Of a stretch of 7,954 nt of DNA, positions 1 through 7,954 are shown piece after piece (position 1 is the first letter of the stretch; every line of letters starts with the position of its first letter). Made by a program: the position numbers and the translations under genes. This DNA comes from an uncultured Rhizobiaceae group bacterium (GTDB lineage: Bacteria > Pseudomonadota > Alphaproteobacteria > Rhizobiales > Rhizobiaceae): assembly GCA_905479965.1 (NCBI GenBank), contig CAJQOR010000435.1:1-7954 (forward strand), written 5' to 3'. Below the pieces are notes generated by a model. It did not search any database and was not told the origin of the DNA. It saw only the letters and a program-made list of their open reading frames with translations.

Positions 1-272
1 ATTGAACCAACACATGGTGAAATCAAGCGATTGATATGGCGAACCAGTGTGGATTTACCAGAGCCTGAAAGACCCATGATACAAAAAACTTCGCCCTTAT
101 TGACGTTGATGCTAACATCTTTAACGCCGACTACGGCACCATATTGTTCCAAAACTTCTGCTTTAGAAAGATTATCTTTCCTAATGGCTTCAAATGCCTC
201 TTTGGCGCGATCCCCAAATATTTTCCAGACATTATTGGCCACCACGACATTCTCGTCACCCGATGTGATCAT
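1..272 (-). CDS. proV: Glycine betaine/proline (osmoprotectant) ABC transporter ATP-binding protein, ProV/OpuAA type, N-terminal part only
   Basis: This is the cytoplasmic ATPase of a quaternary-amine importer. It powers uptake of glycine betaine, proline betaine or choline together with a permease and a periplasmic binding protein, presumably located beyond the left edge. Only the first 90 residues are visible. The start of about 45 residues contains NNVWKIFG (13-20) and a stretch to LEQYG (41-45) that resembles the ProV-specific N-terminal extension, which simple ABC ATPases lack. It is followed by GVKDVS and the Walker A loop GLSGSGKST (67-75), then VRHINRLI. The sequence leaves the window before the Q-loop, so signature, Walker B and CBS domains cannot be checked. 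The ATG at 272 is preceded by GGGAG about 11 bases upstream. The gene is divergent from the biotin operon and probably unrelated in function. Family assignment is confident; the exact substrate is not. Confidence 0.9.
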
Positions 273-576: not shown

Positions 577-984
577 TTGAGTGCTCATAGAATGAAAGTG
601 CCCTTTCGCGATGTCGATATGCATGGCCACGTGCATAACTCAGCTTATATTTGTTATTTTGAAGAAGCTATTACAGATTGGATTGAACAAAATAACTTTG
701 TGTCCGACATCAATCCTTTGACGTCTGAGTATCGTTTTTTCATTAAAAAGATCGAGCTGACTTATCATTTGCCAGCGCATTTTAATAACCAATATGAGAT
801 TGTAGTCTCGCTACAAAAACTAGGCAATACGAGCATTACTTTCTTTAGTGAAATGTTTGATAAGAGCCAAGACGAAGCCAGATTGATTGTTGAAGAAAGC
901 GCCGTTTGGGTGTTTGTGGATAAGATGGGTCAACCGTCTCCAATTGCGTCTCCCTTGCGTGATAAATTGTCGGCGCTTTTATAA
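577..984 (+). CDS. Hotdog-fold acyl-CoA thioesterase (4-hydroxybenzoyl-CoA thioesterase/YbgC family)
   Basis: A 135-residue protein, the usual size of a single hotdog domain, predicted to hydrolyse an acyl-CoA (or acyl-ACP) thioester in the cytoplasm. The family signature is clear: FRDVDMHGHVHNSAY at 10-24, with the conserved aspartate at position 14 at the head of the motif and the long hotdog helix following (YFEEAITDWIEQ). The more usual form is GHVNNxxY; here the second residue pair is His-Asn. The substrate cannot be read from the sequence. The gene starts with TTG after a good Shine-Dalgarno; an ATG at 592 is the alternative. It is the first gene of the operon, and its stop is separated by one base from the bioM start, so it is very likely co-transcribed and translationally coupled with bioM. 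In this context it may release or proofread a CoA-bound chain handled by the downstream ligase and thiolase; that is inference. Confidence 0.85.
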   Translation: MSAHRMKVPFRDVDMHGHVHNSAYICYFEEAITDWIEQNNFVSDINPLTSEYRFFIKKIELTYHLPAHFNNQYEIVVSLQKLGNTSITFFSEMFDKSQDEARLIVEESAVWVFVDKMGQPSPIASPLRDKLSALL

Positions 985-985
985 T

Positions 986-1687
986 ATGTTGAAACCTGAT
1001 GAAAAATTGGCGCTGGAATTTACCGATGTAAATTTGGTGCGCAATGACCAGAAGATTTTGCACAATCTCAATGTTTTAACATCAGAACATAGGATTGGTG
1101 TTATAGGTGCTAATGGCTCAGGAAAGAGCTCTTTTGCACGGCTCTTAAACGGATTGCTTACCCCGACCGATGGCAGTGCGAAGATACTGGGGTATGATGT
1201 AAAACAAACGCCAAAAGATGTCCGCCGACAGGTGGGGTTTGTCTTTCAAAATCCTGATAATCAAATTGTCTATCCTGTCGTATCAGAAGATATCGAATTG
1301 GGTTTAAAAGGGATGAATGTGCCTAAAGCTGAGCGCAAAGCAAAAGTTGAGGAAATTCTATCCCGCTTTAATCTCTTGCACCTTAAAGACCGCTCGGTGC
1401 ACATGCTAAGCGGTGGTGAGAAACAGATGATTGCATTATCGTCTGTGTTGATCATGCAGCCTAAAATGATCGTTTTTGATGAACCAACAACCTTGCTTGA
1501 TTTGCGAAACCGAAACGCGGTTGCTTCAACGATTATGGCGCTTGAACAATATGTTGTTTTAGTGACGCATGATTTAGAACTGTTAAGTGCGTTTGATCGC
1601 GTTTTGGTTTTCAATGAAGGTCGGATCGCAGCTGATGATAGTCCAAAAGAAGCGATCGCTTGGTATAAACGCAAGATGGCAGGCTGA
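986..1687 (+). CDS. bioM: Biotin ECF transporter ATPase subunit BioM
   Basis: ATP-binding subunit of the tripartite biotin importer BioMNY; it hydrolyses ATP on the cytoplasmic face and drives BioN/BioY. The 233-residue protein has all ABC motifs in order: Walker A GANGSGKSS (41-49), Q-loop with Gln88 in VFQNPDNQIV (86-95), signature LSGGE (141-145), Walker B MIVFDEP (161-167, Asp165 and Glu166), and the switch His195 in VTHD. The segment NPDNQIV...VSEDIELGL is characteristic of ECF-type A components (CbiO/EcfA group); the bioN and bioY neighbours identify it as BioM. The ATG at 986 is chosen because the domain begins right after it. An in-frame start at 887 would add 33 residues that are only an out-of-frame reading of the thioesterase gene. 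No Shine-Dalgarno is visible, fitting translational coupling to the upstream stop one base away. It overlaps bioN by one base (TGATG). Confidence 0.93.
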   Translation: MLKPDEKLALEFTDVNLVRNDQKILHNLNVLTSEHRIGVIGANGSGKSSFARLLNGLLTPTDGSAKILGYDVKQTPKDVRRQVGFVFQNPDNQIVYPVVSEDIELGLKGMNVPKAERKAKVEEILSRFNLLHLKDRSVHMLSGGEKQMIALSSVLIMQPKMIVFDEPTTLLDLRNRNAVASTIMALEQYVVLVTHDLELLSAFDRVLVFNEGRIAADDSPKEAIAWYKRKMAG

Positions 1688-2286
1688 TGGATCTATCGTT
1701 TTATCTGCATGGCAATTCAGTTCTTCATAAAATGCCTACTTGGAGCAAATTTGCATTGCTCGTTGCTTTTTCAATTGCATTTTATGCCATCCATGACTTT
1801 CGGATTTTGATTGCAATTTTGGTTTTAGTAATTTTGTTGGTGGCATATATCAAAGTGCCGATGAAGCGGTTAAAAACGATGTTTGCGCTTCCACTTTTTA
1901 TGGTGGTGTTGTTTTCTATCTTTAGCTTTGTTGTGAATGATGTGAATGCAGCTCTTTTGACATTCTTTAGACTATCCAGTCTGGTTATCCTTGCTGCCTG
2001 TGTGACAGTGACCACAAAGATTGAGGATTTCATGGCCTTTATCGAAAACCTTTTGTTGCCATTGTCATTCATCCCCTTTATTAAGCCGAAGACAGTTAGT
2101 CTAACACTGTCGTTAACATTGCGGTTTATTCCGGAGATTTTTAAATTGGGGATGGACATCAAAGAGGCGCAGGCTGCTCGCGGTTTGAAATCAAACCCGA
2201 TCGCACTCATTGTACCATTAATTGTTTTAACTTTAAAACGTGCGGACGATATTTCAGATGCACTTGACGCAAGAATGTTAGACTAG
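1687..2286 (+). CDS. bioN: Biotin ECF transporter transmembrane coupling subunit BioN
   Basis: T component (EcfT/CbiQ superfamily) of the biotin importer, joining the ATPase to the substrate-binding subunit in the cytoplasmic membrane. The 199-residue protein has several hydrophobic segments (roughly 22-35, 38-56, 65-84 and 92-108), followed by the cytoplasmic coupling region. The diagnostic Ala-Arg motifs that dock into the ATPase are present: ARG at 164-166 in AQAARGLKSNP, and a second ARM at 195-197 in DALDARML at the extreme C-terminus. Length and organisation agree with the rather short BioN proteins. The ATG overlaps the bioM stop by one base, a sign of coupled translation, and no strong Shine-Dalgarno is seen. 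Confidence 0.92.
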   Translation: MDLSFYLHGNSVLHKMPTWSKFALLVAFSIAFYAIHDFRILIAILVLVILLVAYIKVPMKRLKTMFALPLFMVVLFSIFSFVVNDVNAALLTFFRLSSLVILAACVTVTTKIEDFMAFIENLLLPLSFIPFIKPKTVSLTLSLTLRFIPEIFKLGMDIKEAQAARGLKSNPIALIVPLIVLTLKRADDISDALDARMLD

Positions 2287-2304
2287 TTCATTTCTTTTAT
2301 AATT

Positions 2305-2310
2305 GGAGAG
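2305..2310 (+). promoter_or_regulatory. Ribosome binding site for bioY, favouring the TTG at 2315
   Basis: GGAGAG, with its GGAG core six bases before TTG 2315. An upstream in-frame TTG at 2303 overlaps this site and has no good Shine-Dalgarno of its own, so the shorter form is preferred. Confidence 0.6.
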
Positions 2311-2314
2311 TAGT

Positions 2315-2872
2315 TTGGCTACCAAAGATATTGTTTTCATCGCATTGTTCGCGGCTATCATCGCAGCATTGGGCTTTTTACCGGCTATTCCGGTTGCAGG
2401 AATACCTGCACCGATCACTGCACAAACACTTGGTGTGATGCTTGCTGGCACAATTTTAGGGCCAAAACGTGGTGCGCTAGCAGTTGCGGTCTTTTTAGTT
2501 TTGGTCTTGGCTGGACTGCCTTTGCTCGCTGGTGGACGCGGCGGAATTGAGTACTTTGTTGGAAATAGCGGTGGGTTTCTCGTTGGCTGGTTCTTTGGCG
2601 CTTATGTCGTCGGCTTTATTGTGAAAAACTTCATATCAGATACGCAGATTAATATCAGAGCGCATTTCATTATTTTAATAGCATGCTTTCTGGGTGGAAT
2701 TTGTGTCGTGTACCTTCCTGGTATTTTGTGGATTGCGCGCAATACAGGCTCGTCTTTCGCAGATGTCTATCTTGGCTCTCTGGTCTTTATACCGGGTGAC
2801 TTTATCAAAGCAATTGTTGCAATGCTTGTGACGGTTGCTGTTCGACGTATTTACCCAATCGCACTTAAGTAA
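2315..2872 (+). CDS. bioY: Biotin ECF transporter substrate-binding subunit BioY
   Basis: S component of the biotin importer: an integral membrane protein of about six helices that binds biotin with high affinity and toggles in the membrane when driven by BioMN. From the TTG at 2315 it is 185 residues, the normal BioY size. Family landmarks are PITAQTLGVMLAG (33-45), a glycine-rich LLAGGRGG (70-77), GGFLVGW (86-92), and the C-terminal PGDFIK (160-165), whose Asp and Lys are conserved in BioY. Hydrophobic stretches lie at about 6-25, 54-72, 88-103, 117-138 and 153-176. TTG 2303 would add four residues (MESS), which belong to the ribosome-binding region. It lies 28 bases after bioN and 11 before the acyl-CoA ligase. 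Biotin is the expected substrate; a related vitamer or precursor cannot be excluded. Confidence 0.93.
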   Translation: MATKDIVFIALFAAIIAALGFLPAIPVAGIPAPITAQTLGVMLAGTILGPKRGALAVAVFLVLVLAGLPLLAGGRGGIEYFVGNSGGFLVGWFFGAYVVGFIVKNFISDTQINIRAHFIILIACFLGGICVVYLPGILWIARNTGSSFADVYLGSLVFIPGDFIKAIVAMLVTVAVRRIYPIALK

Positions 2873-2883
2873 TCCGGTAGATC

Positions 2884-4374
2884 ATGCCATTTCATGTCAA
2901 TATTGAAAAATGGTGTGATCTAGAGCCTGATACAAATGCTGTCACGATAGGTTCTGATACAAATTCGTTTAAGGAACTGATTTGCGCGCGCAATGACGTG
3001 GTCAGCCGCATTGATGCTATTGAGTTGGGGCAATCACAAGGCAATACTGATGGACGTGTCGTTGCGCTGGTGGCTGAAAATTCGGTCGAATTTATAAGTC
3101 GGTTTTTAGCGTCAACGTACGGGAAAAACTGTTGTTTTCTTTTGTCCTCTGCGCTTAAAGCAGCTCAGATACAAACGGTATGCAAAGACATTAAACCTGA
3201 TTTATGTTTCTCGCATCCTCTATTAGAAGGATTTGAGCATCGCGATTGTAAGGTTATCTCGTCAAAAGCGATCGCGGATCGCCCAATTGTTATAAATGAA
3301 GATGGCGCTAAGACGCCATTTTTAATTGGACTAACCTCAGGAACGACATCTCGGCCCAAAGCCTTCATTCGCAATCGACAATCGTGGCAAGGTAGTCTTG
3401 CGCAAAGCCGTGCAGTTTTTGAAGTTGATGCAGCAACGACTACAGTTTCACCGGGACCGTTGGCTCATGGTTTGTCGCTTTATGCGATGGCGGAAACATT
3501 ATCAGCAGGAGCGCATTTCATATCGATGGAAAAGTTCGATCCTGTTGGATTGGCTAAACTCATCAAGCAACATAATGCCAAACGCTTGGTGATGGTGCCA
3601 ACAATGCTTTCCGCTTTATGTAAAACTCTTGAAACGCAAAATATTAAGCTTGATCAAGTTACTTCGATTGTATCTGCTGGTTCAAAGCTTGACGCAGCTT
3701 TATTAAAGTGGATGCAAAACTATATGCCGAACGCGAAGGTGTTTGAATATTACGGCGCATCAGAGCTTGGGTTTGTTACCTATACAGTTCGACAATCTGG
3801 AGATGATGCGGATGGTACAGCTGATGTTGGGCAAGCCTTCCCCGGTGTTGAATTGGCGATTATGGACACTCATGATGAGCGAGTTGCCAACGGTCAGTCC
3901 GGCAAAGTTTGCGTTAAAAGCGAATATATCTGCGATGGATATGTTTCTCAAAAAGATGATGTTGGGTTTTCATTGGTAAATGGATGGGCAAGCGTTGGCG
4001 ATGTCGGATTACTTAATGAGGATGGTAAACTGGTTTTAGCTGGTCGCGAAGGCGATATGATCATATCTGGCGGTAACAATATTTATCCTGCGAGTGTTGA
4101 AATGGTGCTAAAGAGCTTGAACAAAGTGGAGGATGCCATTGTCATGGGAATGGATGATGCGCATCTTGGCTCAAAACTAGTCGCTATCATATCGGGTGAA
4201 AAATTACACAAGACAGATGTAATCAACCATTGCCAGCGAAAGCTTGCCGTTTATGCTATTCCCAAGGTGTTTTATTACATTCAATCTTGGCCGATGACGG
4301 AAAGTGGTAAAATTTCGAAAAAGACATTGATGGATTGGGTGTCGACAAAAAATGACCAGTTACAGCGATTCTAG
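2884..4374 (+). CDS. AMP-forming acyl-CoA ligase (FadD/YhfT-like) in the biotin transport operon
   Basis: A 496-residue member of the class I adenylate-forming superfamily. It is predicted to activate a carboxylic acid with ATP and CoA to an acyl-CoA by way of an acyl-adenylate. The core motifs are complete: P-loop LTSGTTSRPKA (150-160), YYGASELG (289-296), SVGDVG (370-375), the hinge block REGDMIISGGNNIYPASVE (388-406), and the C-terminal ESGKISKK with the presumed adenylation lysine at 476. The N-terminal part is shorter and more divergent than in long-chain FadD. PGPLAHGLSLY (190-200) probably lines the acyl or CoA site. It begins 11 bases after bioY with a weak ribosome site and overlaps the thiolase start by 23 bases. 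From memory, Bacillus yhfT, a similar ligase, is also linked to a bioY gene. The substrate is unknown; a pimelate-like or other medium-chain acid is a guess from context. Confidence 0.87.
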   Translation: MPFHVNIEKWCDLEPDTNAVTIGSDTNSFKELICARNDVVSRIDAIELGQSQGNTDGRVVALVAENSVEFISRFLASTYGKNCCFLLSSALKAAQIQTVCKDIKPDLCFSHPLLEGFEHRDCKVISSKAIADRPIVINEDGAKTPFLIGLTSGTTSRPKAFIRNRQSWQGSLAQSRAVFEVDAATTTVSPGPLAHGLSLYAMAETLSAGAHFISMEKFDPVGLAKLIKQHNAKRLVMVPTMLSALCKTLETQNIKLDQVTSIVSAGSKLDAALLKWMQNYMPNAKVFEYYGASELGFVTYTVRQSGDDADGTADVGQAFPGVELAIMDTHDERVANGQSGKVCVKSEYICDGYVSQKDDVGFSLVNGWASVGDVGLLNEDGKLVLAGREGDMIISGGNNIYPASVEMVLKSLNKVEDAIVMGMDDAHLGSKLVAIISGEKLHKTDVINHCQRKLAVYAIPKVFYYIQSWPMTESGKISKKTLMDWVSTKNDQLQRF

Positions 4375-5557
4375 TTTGGGTGCGGAGCATCGACCCGTCA
4401 TCATTGCTGCAAAGCGCTCACCCATTGGTCGTGCCAATGGATTGTTGAAAGATATTTCTGCTGAAGATCTTTTATCATCGCTTTTGATTGATGTAATCCA
4501 AGGGGCAAGTTTTAAAGCGTCTGATATTGATGATGTGATTGTTGGTAATGCTGCAGGCGGCGGTGGAAATGTTGCGCGTTTAGCTACACTCATGGCAGGG
4601 TTTGATATTCATGTTCCAGGTCTTACCATTGATCGGCAATGCGGCGGCGGTCTTGAAGCAATTAATTTGGCTTGCCGGATGGTCATGTCTGGCGCAGGGC
4701 AATTTTATCTTGCCGGTGGGGTTGAAAGTGTGAGTACAGCGCCAAAGCGCGCAAAGAAAATATCGTCTTCAATTGATGATCTGGAATTTTACGATCGCGC
4801 AAGATTTTCTCCCGATAGCATTGGTGATCCCGATATGGGGGTTGCGGCTGAAAATGTTGCAAAGACGTATGATATTTCTCGCCAACGTCAGGATGAATTT
4901 GCCTTGCTAAGCCATCAGCGCGCCATCAATGCACAAAAGCTTGGAAAGTTTGATGATGAAATAGTACCGATTTCAATTGGTGATATTGTTCAAGATCAAG
5001 ACGAATGCCCCAGAGAAGATACGAGTTTGGATAAACTTGCATCCCTGCCATCTAAATTTGCCGCAGACGGTTCGGTTACTGCGGGTAATTCCTGTCCTTT
5101 AAATGATGGTGCAGCCATTGTTGTTGTTACGAGTTTAGCAAAGGCTCAGCAGTTGGGGGTCGGGCGTGCGATTGAATTCATTGATGGTTGTGCACGTGGG
5201 GTTGATCCCAACCATTTAGGTATTGGACCGGTCGCATCGACAAATCATTTGCTCGTCCGTCAATCACAGATTTCGTGCGATAATCTACAGTTTGTTGAGT
5301 TTAATGAAGCATTTGCATCACAAGTGTTAGCGTCACTTGATGGATTGGGTCTCGCATCTGATGATATCAATTTGGATGGAGGTGCACTTGCGCTTGGTCA
5401 TCCTTTTGGCGCCTCAGGGGCTATTTTGGTTGTTCGTTTGTTTTCTCAAATGGTCAGAGATGAAAATTTTCAAAACGATGCCGTTTCGCTTGCAACATTA
5501 GGGACTGCAGGCGGTATGGGTGTCAGTGCGTTTTTTAGATCAAGGAAGGTAAGCTAG
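4352..5557 (+). CDS. Thiolase-family protein (YhfS-like) lacking the second catalytic cysteine
   Basis: A 401-residue thiolase-fold protein, a family that cleaves 3-oxoacyl-CoA or condenses two acyl-CoAs. The nucleophile Cys97 is in DRQCGGGLEAI (94-104). The NEAF motif (318-321) supplies the oxyanion-hole Asn318, and GGALALGHPFGASGA (343-357) carries the catalytic His350. The normal C-terminal motif is CxGGGxG; here LGTAGGMG (383-390) puts Gly384 (codon GGG, 5501-5503) at the position of the acid/base cysteine. The frame is intact, so this is a substitution and not decay. The enzyme may have a different rate, direction or substrate. The ATG at 4352 overlaps the ligase gene by 23 bases, with no clear Shine-Dalgarno; TTG 4376 is a less attractive alternative. 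It overlaps the SDR gene by one base. Co-transcription with bioMNY parallels, from memory, yhfS of Bacillus. Confidence 0.88.
   Translation: MTSYSDSSLGAEHRPVIIAAKRSPIGRANGLLKDISAEDLLSSLLIDVIQGASFKASDIDDVIVGNAAGGGGNVARLATLMAGFDIHVPGLTIDRQCGGGLEAINLACRMVMSGAGQFYLAGGVESVSTAPKRAKKISSSIDDLEFYDRARFSPDSIGDPDMGVAAENVAKTYDISRQRQDEFALLSHQRAINAQKLGKFDDEIVPISIGDIVQDQDECPREDTSLDKLASLPSKFAADGSVTAGNSCPLNDGAAIVVVTSLAKAQQLGVGRAIEFIDGCARGVDPNHLGIGPVASTNHLLVRQSQISCDNLQFVEFNEAFASQVLASLDGLGLASDDINLDGGALALGHPFGASGAILVVRLFSQMVRDENFQNDAVSLATLGTAGGMGVSAFFRSRKVS
5542..5549 (+). promoter_or_regulatory. Strong ribosome binding site for the SDR gene
   Basis: AAGGAAGG lies seven bases before GTG 5557, inside the last codons of the thiolase. 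It supports the GTG start, which overlaps the TAG stop as TAGTG. Confidence 0.75.
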
Positions 5558-6309
5558 TGCAGCAATCCGGTTTTAAAAATATTGTTATTTCTGGCGCATC
5601 CAGCGGCATTGGGGCCGAACTGGCGATCCAGCTTGCCGGGCAAGGCGTCACGCTTTGTTTGCTCGGGCGTGATGCGGAGCGACTTAATGAGGTATGCGAA
5701 AAATGCCAGACCCAAGGCGCATCCGCATCAACTCATATAGTTGATGTGCGTGATGATCAGCACATGCATGATCTTTTGCTTAAACTTGATGATCAGCATT
5801 TATTTGATCTTGTAATAGCGAGCGCTGGAGTGGGACGACAATACGAAGATACCGATTTCATCCGCCTCACCACTGAGATCAATGTGTTTGGTGTTTTAAA
5901 TATGGTTGAACCGCTGCTTCCGCGTTTGAAAGAGCGCAATAAGGGACAGGTGGCGGTATTAAGTTCACTTGCTGGATTTCGCACATTTGGGCGACCAGCG
6001 GGATATTCAGCCAGTAAAGCTTGGGTCCGGCTTTATGGCGAAGCTTTGCGCGGGCAATATGCAAAATATGGAGTTGGGGTAAGTGTTGTCTGTCCGGGTT
6101 TTGTGAAAACACCGATGGTGCAAAATGCGCCGAAAAACATGTCCGTTATGCCTGTTGAAAAAGCGGTAGAAAAAATCATTCGCGGACTAAAGCGCAACAA
6201 TGGACGTATAATTTTCCCATTCCATCAAGCGTTTTTCATCTGGCTGATTTCGACTTTGCCGACACAATGGTTAGAGGCGTTCTTTATCAAACAAATGGAC
6301 GATCGTTGA
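5557..6309 (+). CDS. Short-chain dehydrogenase/reductase, NADPH-type, last gene of the biotin-linked operon
   Basis: A 250-residue classical SDR predicted to interconvert a keto and a hydroxyl group with NADP(H). The nucleotide-binding loop is SGASSGIG (12-19), and Arg38 after strand 2 (LLGRDAERL) favours NADPH over NADH. ASAG (88-91) stands for the usual NNAG. The catalytic set is complete: Asn109, Ser137, Tyr150 and Lys154 (YSASK). The last 30 residues (about 219-246) are strongly hydrophobic and aromatic, which could lie on the membrane or form a substrate lid. The GTG start follows an excellent Shine-Dalgarno and overlaps the thiolase stop by one base. Next to a ligase and thiolase, a 3-oxoacyl-CoA reductase or 3-hydroxyacyl-CoA dehydrogenase role is reasonable, but SDR substrates cannot be read from sequence. 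It ends two bases from the convergent MDR gene. Confidence 0.87.
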   Translation: MQQSGFKNIVISGASSGIGAELAIQLAGQGVTLCLLGRDAERLNEVCEKCQTQGASASTHIVDVRDDQHMHDLLLKLDDQHLFDLVIASAGVGRQYEDTDFIRLTTEINVFGVLNMVEPLLPRLKERNKGQVAVLSSLAGFRTFGRPAGYSASKAWVRLYGEALRGQYAKYGVGVSVVCPGFVKTPMVQNAPKNMSVMPVEKAVEKIIRGLKRNNGRIIFPFHQAFFIWLISTLPTQWLEAFFIKQMDDR

Positions 6310-6311
6310 TA

Positions 6312-7289
6312 TCAGAGCGCTAGCAACACCTTGCCCGATCGATTTGGATCATCAAGCACTTTTGCGGCGTTTTTAATCTCGTCAATTGGCAGAGTTTTAT
6401 AAACACGAGTTGTGATCGTGCCATCTAAGATAAGTTCTGCGGTTTTATCAAACATCTGTTGGATATCTTCATAAGGGGCGGAATGTACCCAATTGCGAAG
6501 CCAGTATAGTTTTAATGCGATATCCGGTCGATGCTTATTTAAATTTTGGCTGATTGGAATGCCAGATAATAACCCATAATGCACAATCATGCCGCCGATT
6601 TTTAATGACCTAGCAAGCGCTTCGGCTTTTGGCCCCCCAATAGCATCAAACATGACATCGAAGTTATGATATGTCTTTGACTTGATAAATGCATCTTCAT
6701 TTTGAACAGAAATTGTGTCGCCAAAAACGGTGTTTAATTCCTGTTTTGAACGATCTGATCGTGCAAGTGCTGTCACTTTCGCTCCGATCTTTAAGCATAA
6801 CTCGATAATGATATGACCAATCTCTGAGTTCGCCGCATTGACCAATACCGAGTTCGACCTATCAACTATTGCGATTTCATCCACCATTTTTAATGCGGTC
6901 ATTGGATTGATATAAGACATGGCCGCGTCTTGCGGTGCGAGGCGGTCATTCATCGTAAAACAGTTTTGAGCCTTTGCGAGTTGAAACTTTTGCCAAGTGC
7001 CTGATTGGCGGATTGGCATGACGCGTTCACCAATTTTCAAATGTAAAACATTTGCACCTATTTGATGTACTAAACCCACGCCCTCAAACCCGGGTCGAAA
7101 AGGTAGCTGTGTGCGCCCACGATATGCCCCGCTTATTGTGATGATGTCAGATGGATTTATTGGAGCATACTCCATTTTGATCAAAACTTCGTCTGGCCCG
7201 CAATGAGGCAGATCGGTCGTCTCAATTTCAATCACATCTTCAAGCTTTCCAAACTGATGAATTATTGAGCAGGTGTTTAAAATTTGCAT
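6312..7289 (-). CDS. MDR-family 2-enoyl-thioester reductase-like oxidoreductase (MECR/ETR1 type, zinc-free)
   Basis: A 325-residue medium-chain dehydrogenase/reductase. It resembles NADPH-dependent trans-2-enoyl-CoA/ACP reductases more than alcohol dehydrogenases: APINPSDI (42-49), GAYRG (54-58) with Tyr56 at the catalytic tyrosine position, GFEGVG (67-72), GTW (97-99) and NPMTA (128-132). The cofactor loop is NAANSEIG (151-158), followed by ALARSDR (174-180), where basic residues suggest NADPH. No zinc-binding cysteine cluster is present. Quinone-oxidoreductase-like activity is the main alternative. The ATG at 7289 has AAGG eight bases upstream (7298-7301). It is transcribed towards the biotin operon and divergently from the ATP-grasp gene, so it is not part of the operon transcript. 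Its chemistry would nevertheless complement a ligase, thiolase and ketoreductase set. Confidence 0.83.
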   Translation of the reverse strand: MQILNTCSIIHQFGKLEDVIEIETTDLPHCGPDEVLIKMEYAPINPSDIITISGAYRGRTQLPFRPGFEGVGLVHQIGANVLHLKIGERVMPIRQSGTWQKFQLAKAQNCFTMNDRLAPQDAAMSYINPMTALKMVDEIAIVDRSNSVLVNAANSEIGHIIIELCLKIGAKVTALARSDRSKQELNTVFGDTISVQNEDAFIKSKTYHNFDVMFDAIGGPKAEALARSLKIGGMIVHYGLLSGIPISQNLNKHRPDIALKLYWLRNWVHSAPYEDIQQMFDKTAELILDGTITTRVYKTLPIDEIKNAAKVLDDPNRSGKVLLAL

Positions 7290-7395: not shown

Positions 7396-7954
7396 ATGAG
7401 TAAAGATCCAGTTTTCTTTGATGAAATGTTTGCGAAGGGCATTGACCCACGTAGTCCTTATCAATCTGTACACGAATGGGTTAATTCAGAAGACCCAAAA
7501 ACTCTTACCAAAAAAGCAGAAGAAGCGGAGTTGTTTTTTCGCCGAACAGGTATCACCTTCAATGTTTATGGAGATGATGCTGCAACCGAAAGGTTGATCC
7601 CGTTTGATATCGTGCCGCGTATTTTGGCAGCAAGAGAGTTTTCCAAACTTGCAGAAGGTATTGAGCAGCGCGTTCAAGCGTTAAACGCATTTTTGCATGA
7701 TATTTATCACCGCCAAGAAATTTTAAAGGCGGGTGTTGTCCCCACCGGTCTTATTGCAAACAACGTCGCGTTTGAACCAAAGATGATTGGTTTTACGCCT
7801 CCTGGAAATATTTATACACATATTGTAGGTGTTGATATTGTGCGCACAGGTGAAGATGATTTCTTTGTGCTTGAAGACAACGCACGCACACCATCTGGGG
7901 TCTCCTACATGCTGGAAAATCGTGAAACGATGCTTCAGATGTTTCCGGAATTGT
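7396..7954 (+). CDS. Circularly permuted ATP-grasp type 2 protein (DUF404/DUF407 group), N-terminal part, runs off the window
   Basis: The visible 186 residues match the start of the circularly permuted ATP-grasp family, which is predicted to form an amide or peptide bond using ATP; the substrate is not established. The order of conserved blocks is FDEM (8-11), FFRRTGITFNVYGD (47-60), ERLIPFDIVPRIL (65-77), QRVQALNAFLHDIYH (91-105), and HIVGVDIVR followed by LEDNARTPSGVSYMLENRE (158-176). No stop is reached and the nucleotide-binding half lies outside. The frame is open throughout with no sign of damage. The ATG at 7396 is the only sensible start, since an in-frame TAG lies just upstream (7384-7386); no good Shine-Dalgarno is visible. 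In proteobacteria such genes are commonly followed by an alpha-E domain (DUF403) protein and a transglutaminase-like protease, which may lie to the right. Confidence 0.9.
   Translation, partial: MSKDPVFFDEMFAKGIDPRSPYQSVHEWVNSEDPKTLTKKAEEAELFFRRTGITFNVYGDDAATERLIPFDIVPRILAAREFSKLAEGIEQRVQALNAFLHDIYHRQEILKAGVVPTGLIANNVAFEPKMIGFTPPGNIYTHIVGVDIVRTGEDDFFVLEDNARTPSGVSYMLENRETMLQMFPEL

Follow-up and report, generated by a model that had tools for sequence, protein, structure and literature searches.

Organisation of the locus

The window described here is the whole of a 7,954-nucleotide stretch of DNA from an uncultured bacterium of the Rhizobiaceae group (assembly GCA_905479965.1, contig CAJQOR010000435.1), and its central feature is an operon in which the genes of a biotin importer, bioM, bioN and bioY, lie amongst genes for enzymes that act on acyl-CoA thioesters. 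An earlier, sequence-only reading of this DNA had described seven genes head to tail between positions 577 and 6309, with neighbours no more than 28 bases apart or overlapping, and this layout is borne out by the listing of open reading frames (ORFs). On the plus strand the order is thioesterase, bioM, bioN, bioY, acyl-CoA ligase, thiolase and short-chain dehydrogenase/reductase (SDR), with successive spacings of a 1-base gap, a 1-base overlap, a 28-base gap, an 11-base gap, a 23-base overlap and a 1-base overlap. An eighth gene, absent from the earlier list, belongs to the same conserved set: it encodes a medium-chain dehydrogenase/reductase (MDR; 6312-7289, minus strand), an MECR-like candidate enoyl-thioester reductase, and converges on the operon with its stop 2 bases away from that of the SDR.

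All three parts of a BioMNY transporter are encoded together in the window. They are a BioM-type energy-coupling factor (ECF) ATPase (986-1687, plus strand; ABC_tran, with ECF_ATPase_1 the top NCBIfam model at 203 bits, under its cut-off of 315), a BioN-type ECF transmembrane T component (1687-2286, plus strand; CbiQ, PF02361, 54 bits) and the biotin S component BioY (2315-2872, plus strand; PF02632, 128 bits). The start of BioM was taken as the ATG at 986, the listed ORF being longer and opening upstream in frame, and the TTG start of BioY agrees with the MATKD of its relatives. When a profile was made from 16 BioY proteins of the cassette, the sole PDB sequence that it matched at E up to 0.001 was BioY 4dve, at 155 bits. 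The window thus resembles other BioMNY ECF transporters in its three components and in a BioY whose profile matches a solved one; unlike a plain BioMNY locus, its genes are, judged by layout, co-transcribed with those of CoA enzymes. The bioYMN operon of Corynebacterium glutamicum has no CoA enzyme in its name, as it appears in the excerpted text of PMC3398298.

The first gene of the operon encodes a hotdog thioesterase of the YbgC/FadM type (577-984, plus strand, TTG start; PF13279, and TIGR00051 at 72.6 bits against a cut-off of 68.7). Downstream of bioY lie the genes for an AMP-forming acyl-CoA ligase (2884-4374, plus strand; AMP-binding matches, PF00501 and PF13193), a thiolase-fold enzyme with an altered active site (4352-5557, plus strand; Thiolase_N and Thiolase_C) and the SDR, a candidate 3-ketoacyl-CoA reductase (5557-6309, plus strand, GTG start; adh_short, 131 bits). 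Judged by these profile matches, the family assignments of the window genes are secure at the level of the superfamily. Because a terminator scan of the whole window gave 10 candidates, close to the 8.4 (standard deviation 3.3) found in shuffled sequence, no terminator stands out.

Linkage of the enzymes to the biotin importer

An alignment of 26 ligases was used to scan named genomes and detected 497 relatives; the survey counts reported here refer to the best 80 of these 497 loci. Profiles built up from the window proteins served to count neighbours up to 6.5 kb from the ligase; they took the place of a clustering of greedy longest ORFs, in which the overlapping ORFs of GC-rich genomes seemed to cause confusion. 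The thiolase is found beside the ligase in 80/80 loci, the thioesterase in 75/80 and the MDR in 74/80, and bioM, bioN and bioY are each present in 51/80 (one of these linked loci, L065, is a short contig in which bioM is doubtful). The sequence-only reading had proposed that the association of ligase and thiolase with bioMNY holds across phyla; with 51 of the best 80 loci linked the proposal is upheld, and a linkage peculiar to this strain is excluded.

The linked sets span alpha-, beta- and gammaproteobacteria and Actinomycetota and occur in at least eight gene orders (a count that omits the SDR, orders merely short of members, and L065, and that groups L017, whose MDR lies just past the 6.5 kb limit, with L031), and the genes have therefore been reshuffled yet have stayed together. 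The names amongst the 51 are Ensifer/Sinorhizobium, Shinella, Shimia, Cognatishimia, Rhodobacter, Ferruginivarius, Nitratireductor and Aestuariivirgaceae, with Rhizobiaceae and Rhizobiales that bear no genus name; further names are Ramlibacter, Erwinia, Pantoea, Rouxiella, Streptomyces, Nocardiopsis and Marinactinospora, with an unplaced proteobacterial metagenome-assembled genome (MAG). Two more genera, Azospirillum and Streptantibioticus, carry the set on plasmids. The SDR follows the thiolase, as in the window, in L002-L004, L017, L028 and L031. Amongst the best 120 listed database proteins, the relatives of the window ligase have 61-70 per cent identity, Lentilitoribacter and Rhizobiaceae MAGs included, followed by five at 47-51 per cent and then by others at about 40 per cent or less.

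By rough arithmetic, with one BioY per 5 Mb genome, about 0.2 linked loci would be expected in 80 against the 51 seen, the loci not being independent. Between-locus distances of the enzymes and the transporter parts, compared over 16 loci, correlate with Pearson coefficients of 0.72-0.83, and those among the enzymes with 0.82-0.90, which is weak support because shared host ancestry contributes.

Genomes not chosen for the linkage were drawn around two seeds, Shinella H4-D48 (G015; locus L067) and Erwinia persicina (G030). Three of 240 genomes from the class of the Shinella seed (G015, G054 and G083) have the cassette thiolase, at 579-622 bits with the next matches at 365 and 360 bits, and all three (L067, L126 and L127) carry ligase and thiolase with BioM, BioN and BioY; within its family the thiolase occurs in 12 of 199 genomes. 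Across 119 genomes from the family of the Erwinia seed, BioY is present in three and the cassette thiolase in two, both among those three. The third BioY (L132) adjoins divergently a shortened ligase and a weaker thiolase. This divergent version (4732-9693, in a genome of 3.6 Mb) comprises a ligase of 380 amino acids, a thiolase altered further and a gene of 234 amino acids that matches no NCBIfam model; all three are divergent to the importer genes bioY, bioM and bioN.

These counts bear on the idea that the ligase only makes biotinyl-CoA, so that biotin is retained by metabolic trapping and later released by the thioesterase, the other enzymes acting elsewhere. Most of the 51 linked loci do have ligase and thioesterase next to the importer, but the thiolase is at least as tightly tied to the ligase, accompanying it in every locus and overlapping it in the window, and the MDR is there in 74 of the 80; we consider trapping very unlikely.

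The thiolase active site

In its fold, and in keeping C97, N318 and H350 when aligned to solved thiolases, the window enzyme is like the biosynthetic thiolase of the Zoogloea ramigera type, in which we take the equivalent residues to be Cys89, Asn316 and His348. It departs from that type at two positions, which we likewise take to be Cys378 and Ser247 in the Zoogloea numbering: glycine (G384) stands where the second catalytic cysteine is expected, and cysteine (C248) where Ser247 is expected. The nucleophilic cysteine is kept in 80/80 loci, and the histidine of the GHP motif and the asparagine of the NEAF motif in 79/79 readable loci, L063 being cut. At the Cys378 position there is glycine in 78/79 readable loci, with alanine in L060, and at the Ser247 position cysteine in 79/79; the same glycine is seen in all 120 proteins listed from the database, that of the window among them, and the same cysteine in 120/120. 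The Cys378 position is occupied by cysteine in two solved thiolases that we aligned, 1ulq and 4n44, and by serine in a third, 4n45.

The predicted structure of the window thiolase (mean pLDDT 87.7) matches thiolases at query TM 0.83-0.90 amongst the 50 matches listed. The simplest readings of the active site are that the catalytic cysteine has moved or that the enzyme has a Cys-His-Asn condensing centre, as is found in KAS III. The divergent thiolase of L132 has alanine at the Cys378 position and no cysteine at the Ser247 site, and by eye it is missing the NEAF asparagine. As a separate observation, one copy of the cassette thiolase (L106; G341:C1:1129977-1131155) has an internal TGA in its reading and is possibly decaying.

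The ligase, reductases and thioesterase

The best equivalog-level NCBIfam models for the ligase and the thiolase are PRK07638 (290 bits, below the cut-off of 518) and PRK06690 (376 bits, below 498), presumably the models for YhfT and YhfS respectively. The same models rank best in 4/4 loci scanned (the window, L064, L078 and L132), always below their cut-offs; PRK06690 was above its cut-off in one of 14 control genomes. The structural model of the ligase (mean pLDDT 85.2) matches many adenylate-forming enzymes, for example plant 5ie0, MenE and MatB, at 19-23 per cent identity, with the fatty acyl-CoA synthetase 3r44 at rank 18. The structure searches with thiolase and ligase thus confirm the folds and do not indicate the substrate.

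A profile of 13 MDR members finds 3gms nearest (299 bits) and then the human trans-2-enoyl-CoA reductase MECR (210 bits). This match and an NPSD...Y stretch suggest a likeness of the window MDR to the trans-2-enoyl-thioester reductases MECR and Etr1; its profile lies closer still to the putative reductase 3gms. N45, P46, S47, D48, G54, A55 and Y56 are invariant in the 13 aligned members, and we take the tyrosine of the stretch to be the catalytic one. For the thioesterase, D14, G17, H20 and N21 are invariant in 13 aligned cassette members, the hotdog aspartate motif is kept, and the nearest solved structures are thioesterases and YbgC. Taken as a set, the enzymes recall reverse beta-oxidation in their thiolase, ketoreductase and enoyl reductase types and their terminal thioesterase; the differences are that the set would feed from a vitamin importer, that a hydratase is mostly not seen and that the thiolase is altered.

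Neighbouring genes were scanned with Pfam in 27 ORFs around 13 cassette loci. No acyl-CoA dehydrogenase was found in these ORFs or in the window proteins, and the ORFs held no gene for fatty-acid synthase or carboxylase, bar one SDR near L127 that scores best in NCBIfam with FabG, under the cut-off. Genes for biotin protein ligase, recognisable by GRGR and KWPND motifs, adjoin the cassette MDR in L028 (6705-7484) and L070 (6576-7355); these, and the bioB, bioD and bioA next to the cassette in Streptomyces lydicus, are in keeping with a link to biotin. An MFS transporter gene adjoins the ligase or the thiolase in three lineages, namely L017 (7813-8997, called by Pfam), L092 (12208-13443, by record annotation) and L127 (about 5540-6790, by eye).

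Biotin ring-assembly genes in carrier genomes

The sequence-only reading had suggested a check for biotin-synthesis genes, which we ran on relatives, so that the ring-assembly status of the window is judged on these and not on its own genome. BioA, bioB and bioD (bioF was not searched) were scored against curated cut-offs in 32 carrier genomes, L027 not among them, and for most of these the answer was negative: the same 10/32 carriers have all three above the cut-offs, and in 22/32 none of the three reaches them. The 22 include L002-L004, which are MAGs and the three nearest named relatives of the window, and also R. johnstonii 3841 and Shinella H4-D48, the chromosome of which is titled complete. 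Below the cut-offs there are weaker bioB and bioA matches in every carrier and weak bioD matches, of 22-27 bits, in five more. BioY is present in 32/32. The absences are not independent, because bioA, bioB and bioD often form one cluster that single drafts may lose, but a chance loss of the cluster from 22 genomes is unlikely. The cassette therefore does not require ring assembly; that it replaces ring assembly does not follow. An enrichment of carriers for the lack of bioB was also considered, within the family of Shinella H4-D48, and was rejected (Fisher p 0.24).

Streptomyces lydicus (L119, 615-13825) carries bioB, bioD, bioA, a P450 and a BioF-like gene beside the cassette, the last at 383 bits with the bioF model against a cut-off of 426 and with an uncertain ORF start; a second bioB, bioA and bioD lie elsewhere in the genome. 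S. lydicus is presumably a producer of alpha-dehydrobiotin; no paper with both terms was listed in open-licence PMC.

According to the excerpted text of PMC8914248, about half of 181 rhizobial genomes are without biotin synthesis genes, R. etli CFN42, R. phaseoli CIAT652 and S. meliloti 1021 are biotin auxotrophs, and CIAT652 grows only with added biotin. In a plasmid record of CIAT 652 there is a match of 36 per cent to the window ligase, taken here by itself.

Pimeloyl-CoA supply, through the activation of dicarboxylates and their extension or shortening, was the first of two roles that the sequence-only reading had put forward. It would account for a ligase with a thiolase, and it is in keeping with the ten carriers that have bioA, bioB and bioD and with the flanking set of S. 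lydicus. In the 22 carriers that have none of the three above cut-offs, the nearest named relatives included, it is contradicted; CIAT652, whose plasmid record has the ligase match, needs added biotin in the account excerpted above (PMC8914248), and a thioesterase would, we reason, destroy pimeloyl-CoA. We now disfavour this role and regard it as the least probable of those considered here.

Upstream element, flanking genes and regulation

About 47 bases before the thioesterase start lies an inverted repeat, CTATACCGTTATAG (517-530, strand not assigned), which is conserved in L002-L004. Its pattern occurs once in the window, in 0 of 200 shuffles and in none of the other loci of 128, and we propose it as a candidate operator or promoter element. 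The BioR palindrome, in its presumed consensus, has no exact match in the window or in 81 loci, where three one-mismatch sites lie within 400 bases of a cassette gene; there is no evidence in these loci for control by BioR. A search by clade for common upstream 10-mers and palindromes found nothing consistent.

Divergent from the operon is an end-cut gene for a ProV-like glycine betaine/proline ABC ATPase (3-272, minus strand), and L002-L004 have an ABC match at the equivalent place. The other outer gene is the beginning of one for a circularly permuted ATP-grasp protein (7396-7953). Rfam and tRNA scans of the window gave no matches.

The nearest known systems are Gram-positive. In Bacillus subtilis the binding of BirA to the yhfUTS operator requires both biotin and ATP, yhfU being BioY-like (PMC4016012, in excerpt), and BirA of Staphylococcus aureus gives biotin-dependent repression of the bioY and yhfS-yhfT promoters in an Escherichia coli reporter (PMC6391492, likewise in excerpt). 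Like the window, both have BioY together with an acyl-CoA ligase and a thiolase, and theirs belong to the biotin regulon. Unlike yhfUTS, the window adds a dedicated bioM and bioN, the thioesterase, the SDR and the MECR-like MDR, and its ligase (290/518 bits) and thiolase (376/498 bits) lie below the equivalog cut-offs. The Bacillus parallel drawn in the sequence-only reading stands as regards a biotin-regulated yhfUTS with a BioY-like yhfU, as excerpted, the window proteins scoring best amongst equivalog models with PRK07638 and PRK06690, if below the cut-offs. In the parts of the open-licence PMC literature covered, the Gram-positive operons were found, with no tested function for the ligase or thiolase and no mention of the extended set.

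That the Gram-positive relatives answer to BirA and biotin fits supply and not degradation, in so far as the excerpted sources describe them. This bears on an oxidative role, in which ligase and thiolase would run beta-oxidation, trimming long-chain biotin analogues or degrading biotin. Ligase, SDR and thiolase are steps of beta-oxidation too, and enoyl-CoA hydratases lie near three loci. Yet no acyl-CoA dehydrogenase was seen in the window or the 27 scanned neighbouring ORFs, the MDR looks like an enoyl reductase, biotin represses the S. aureus relatives in the excerpted account, and carriers without ring-assembly genes could, we reason, ill afford to degrade biotin. Oxidative shortening is in our judgement unlikely.

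A possible route for the scavenging of biotin vitamers

The link of the enzyme set to biotin is well supported. The gene content, the linkage in distant bacteria, the carriers without ring-assembly genes and the unusual thiolase site are observed; the substrates, the direction and every reaction of the pathway are what we infer. An activating enzyme, a condensing or acyl-exchanging one, two reducing ones and a releasing one, together with an importer and a frequent lack of ring genes, fit the remodelling of a vitamer side chain better than they fit pimelate supply. The second role put forward by the sequence-only reading, the processing of vitamer side chains, survives on these grounds and is favoured, though it is unproved. 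Our tentative proposal, for which we would claim somewhat less than an even chance, is that the operon serves the scavenging of biotin vitamers: ring-intact compounds would be salvaged by activating the side chain, extending or reducing it, and releasing the product.

On this proposal BioMNY would take up biotin-like compounds and the ligase would convert the side-chain carboxylate to a CoA thioester. The thiolase-fold enzyme would add two carbons or exchange an acyl group; reduction of the 3-keto and 2-enoyl thioesters would fall to the SDR and to the MECR-like MDR, with the hydratase step usually provided by the host, and the hotdog thioesterase would free the acid. The net effect would be to turn side-chain-damaged biotin into biotin again, for which we assume bisnorbiotin and beta-keto-, beta-hydroxy- and alpha-dehydrobiotin as candidates. 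In its more specific form the proposal is rather doubtful: beta-oxidation would have shortened or altered the valerate side chain of the scavenged biotin, the cassette would extend this chain again and reduce it to give biotin, and the thiolase would have its second catalytic cysteine at the Ser247 site, to which it would have shifted from the 378 loop.

Several observations weigh against the salvage of vitamers. Acceptance of altered side chains by BioY is a putative premise, the structure search with the ligase gave no pointer to its substrate, and the loss of the second catalytic cysteine should weaken ordinary acetyl-CoA condensation. Only L063, L078 and L127 have an enoyl-CoA hydratase close to the set, and its membership there is uncertain. 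Just 22/80 loci have any SDR up to 6.5 kb from the ligase, and in 12 of these, in Rhizobium, it stands past the MDR; the thioesterase is missing in 5/80 loci, and the MDR is missing or more than 6.5 kb away in 6/80. In the family of Shinella H4-D48 the carriers are no poorer in bioB than other genomes, 4/12 having it against 33/187 (Fisher p 0.24). Lastly, 28 Rhizobium loci have the enzymes without bioMNY, up to 9 kb having been examined on each side, and the tie between enzymes and importer is therefore not absolute.

These 28 and L052 (Erwinia rhapontici) make up the 29/80 loci without bioMNY. In Rhizobium, BioY lies elsewhere in the genome in 4/4 searched, with BioM and BioN adjoining it in 2/2 inspected. 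The L052 contig starts just before the MDR, and BioM, BioN and BioY of that genome are at the end of another contig, a split that would be expected if its gene order is that of the other Erwinia.

The separation in Rhizobium is one of the points in favour of the strongest alternative to salvage, an adaptation of lipid metabolism: when biotin is short, acetyl-CoA carboxylase fails, and the enzymes, acting independently of it, would activate acyl chains and lengthen or remodel them, their adjacency to bioMNY reflecting joint regulation. Biotin limitation in S. aureus raised membrane fluidity, an effect ascribed to acetyl-CoA carboxylase in the excerpted text of PMC12642757; yhfT and yhfS are called putative fatty-acid enzymes, under BirA, in the sources as excerpted; and 3r44 is a fatty acyl-CoA synthetase, if at rank 18 amongst the ligase matches. 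On the other side, the linkage seen in 51/80 loci is to the importer, the neighbouring ORFs held no gene for fatty-acid synthase or carboxylase save the FabG-like SDR near L127, and feeding lipids needs, on reasoning, no dedicated thioesterase. On balance we find lipid adaptation improbable, and we keep the salvage of vitamers as the reading to be preferred.

The linkage across phyla extends well past a single window, since unrelated bacteria, many of which seemingly cannot make biotin, also have the enzymes next to a biotin importer, and the cassette may repair or remodel scavenged biotin-like molecules and not build biotin from scratch. The known relative of the cassette is yhfUTS of Bacillus. 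That the cassette provides a previously undescribed pathway of vitamin repair is a claim that we can make only with considerable doubt. If biotin is indeed rebuilt from its breakdown products, the usable pool of the vitamin would be larger than has been assumed, yhfT and yhfS of Bacillus and Staphylococcus would gain a testable function, and the thiolase would show that a catalytic residue can be relocated in nature.

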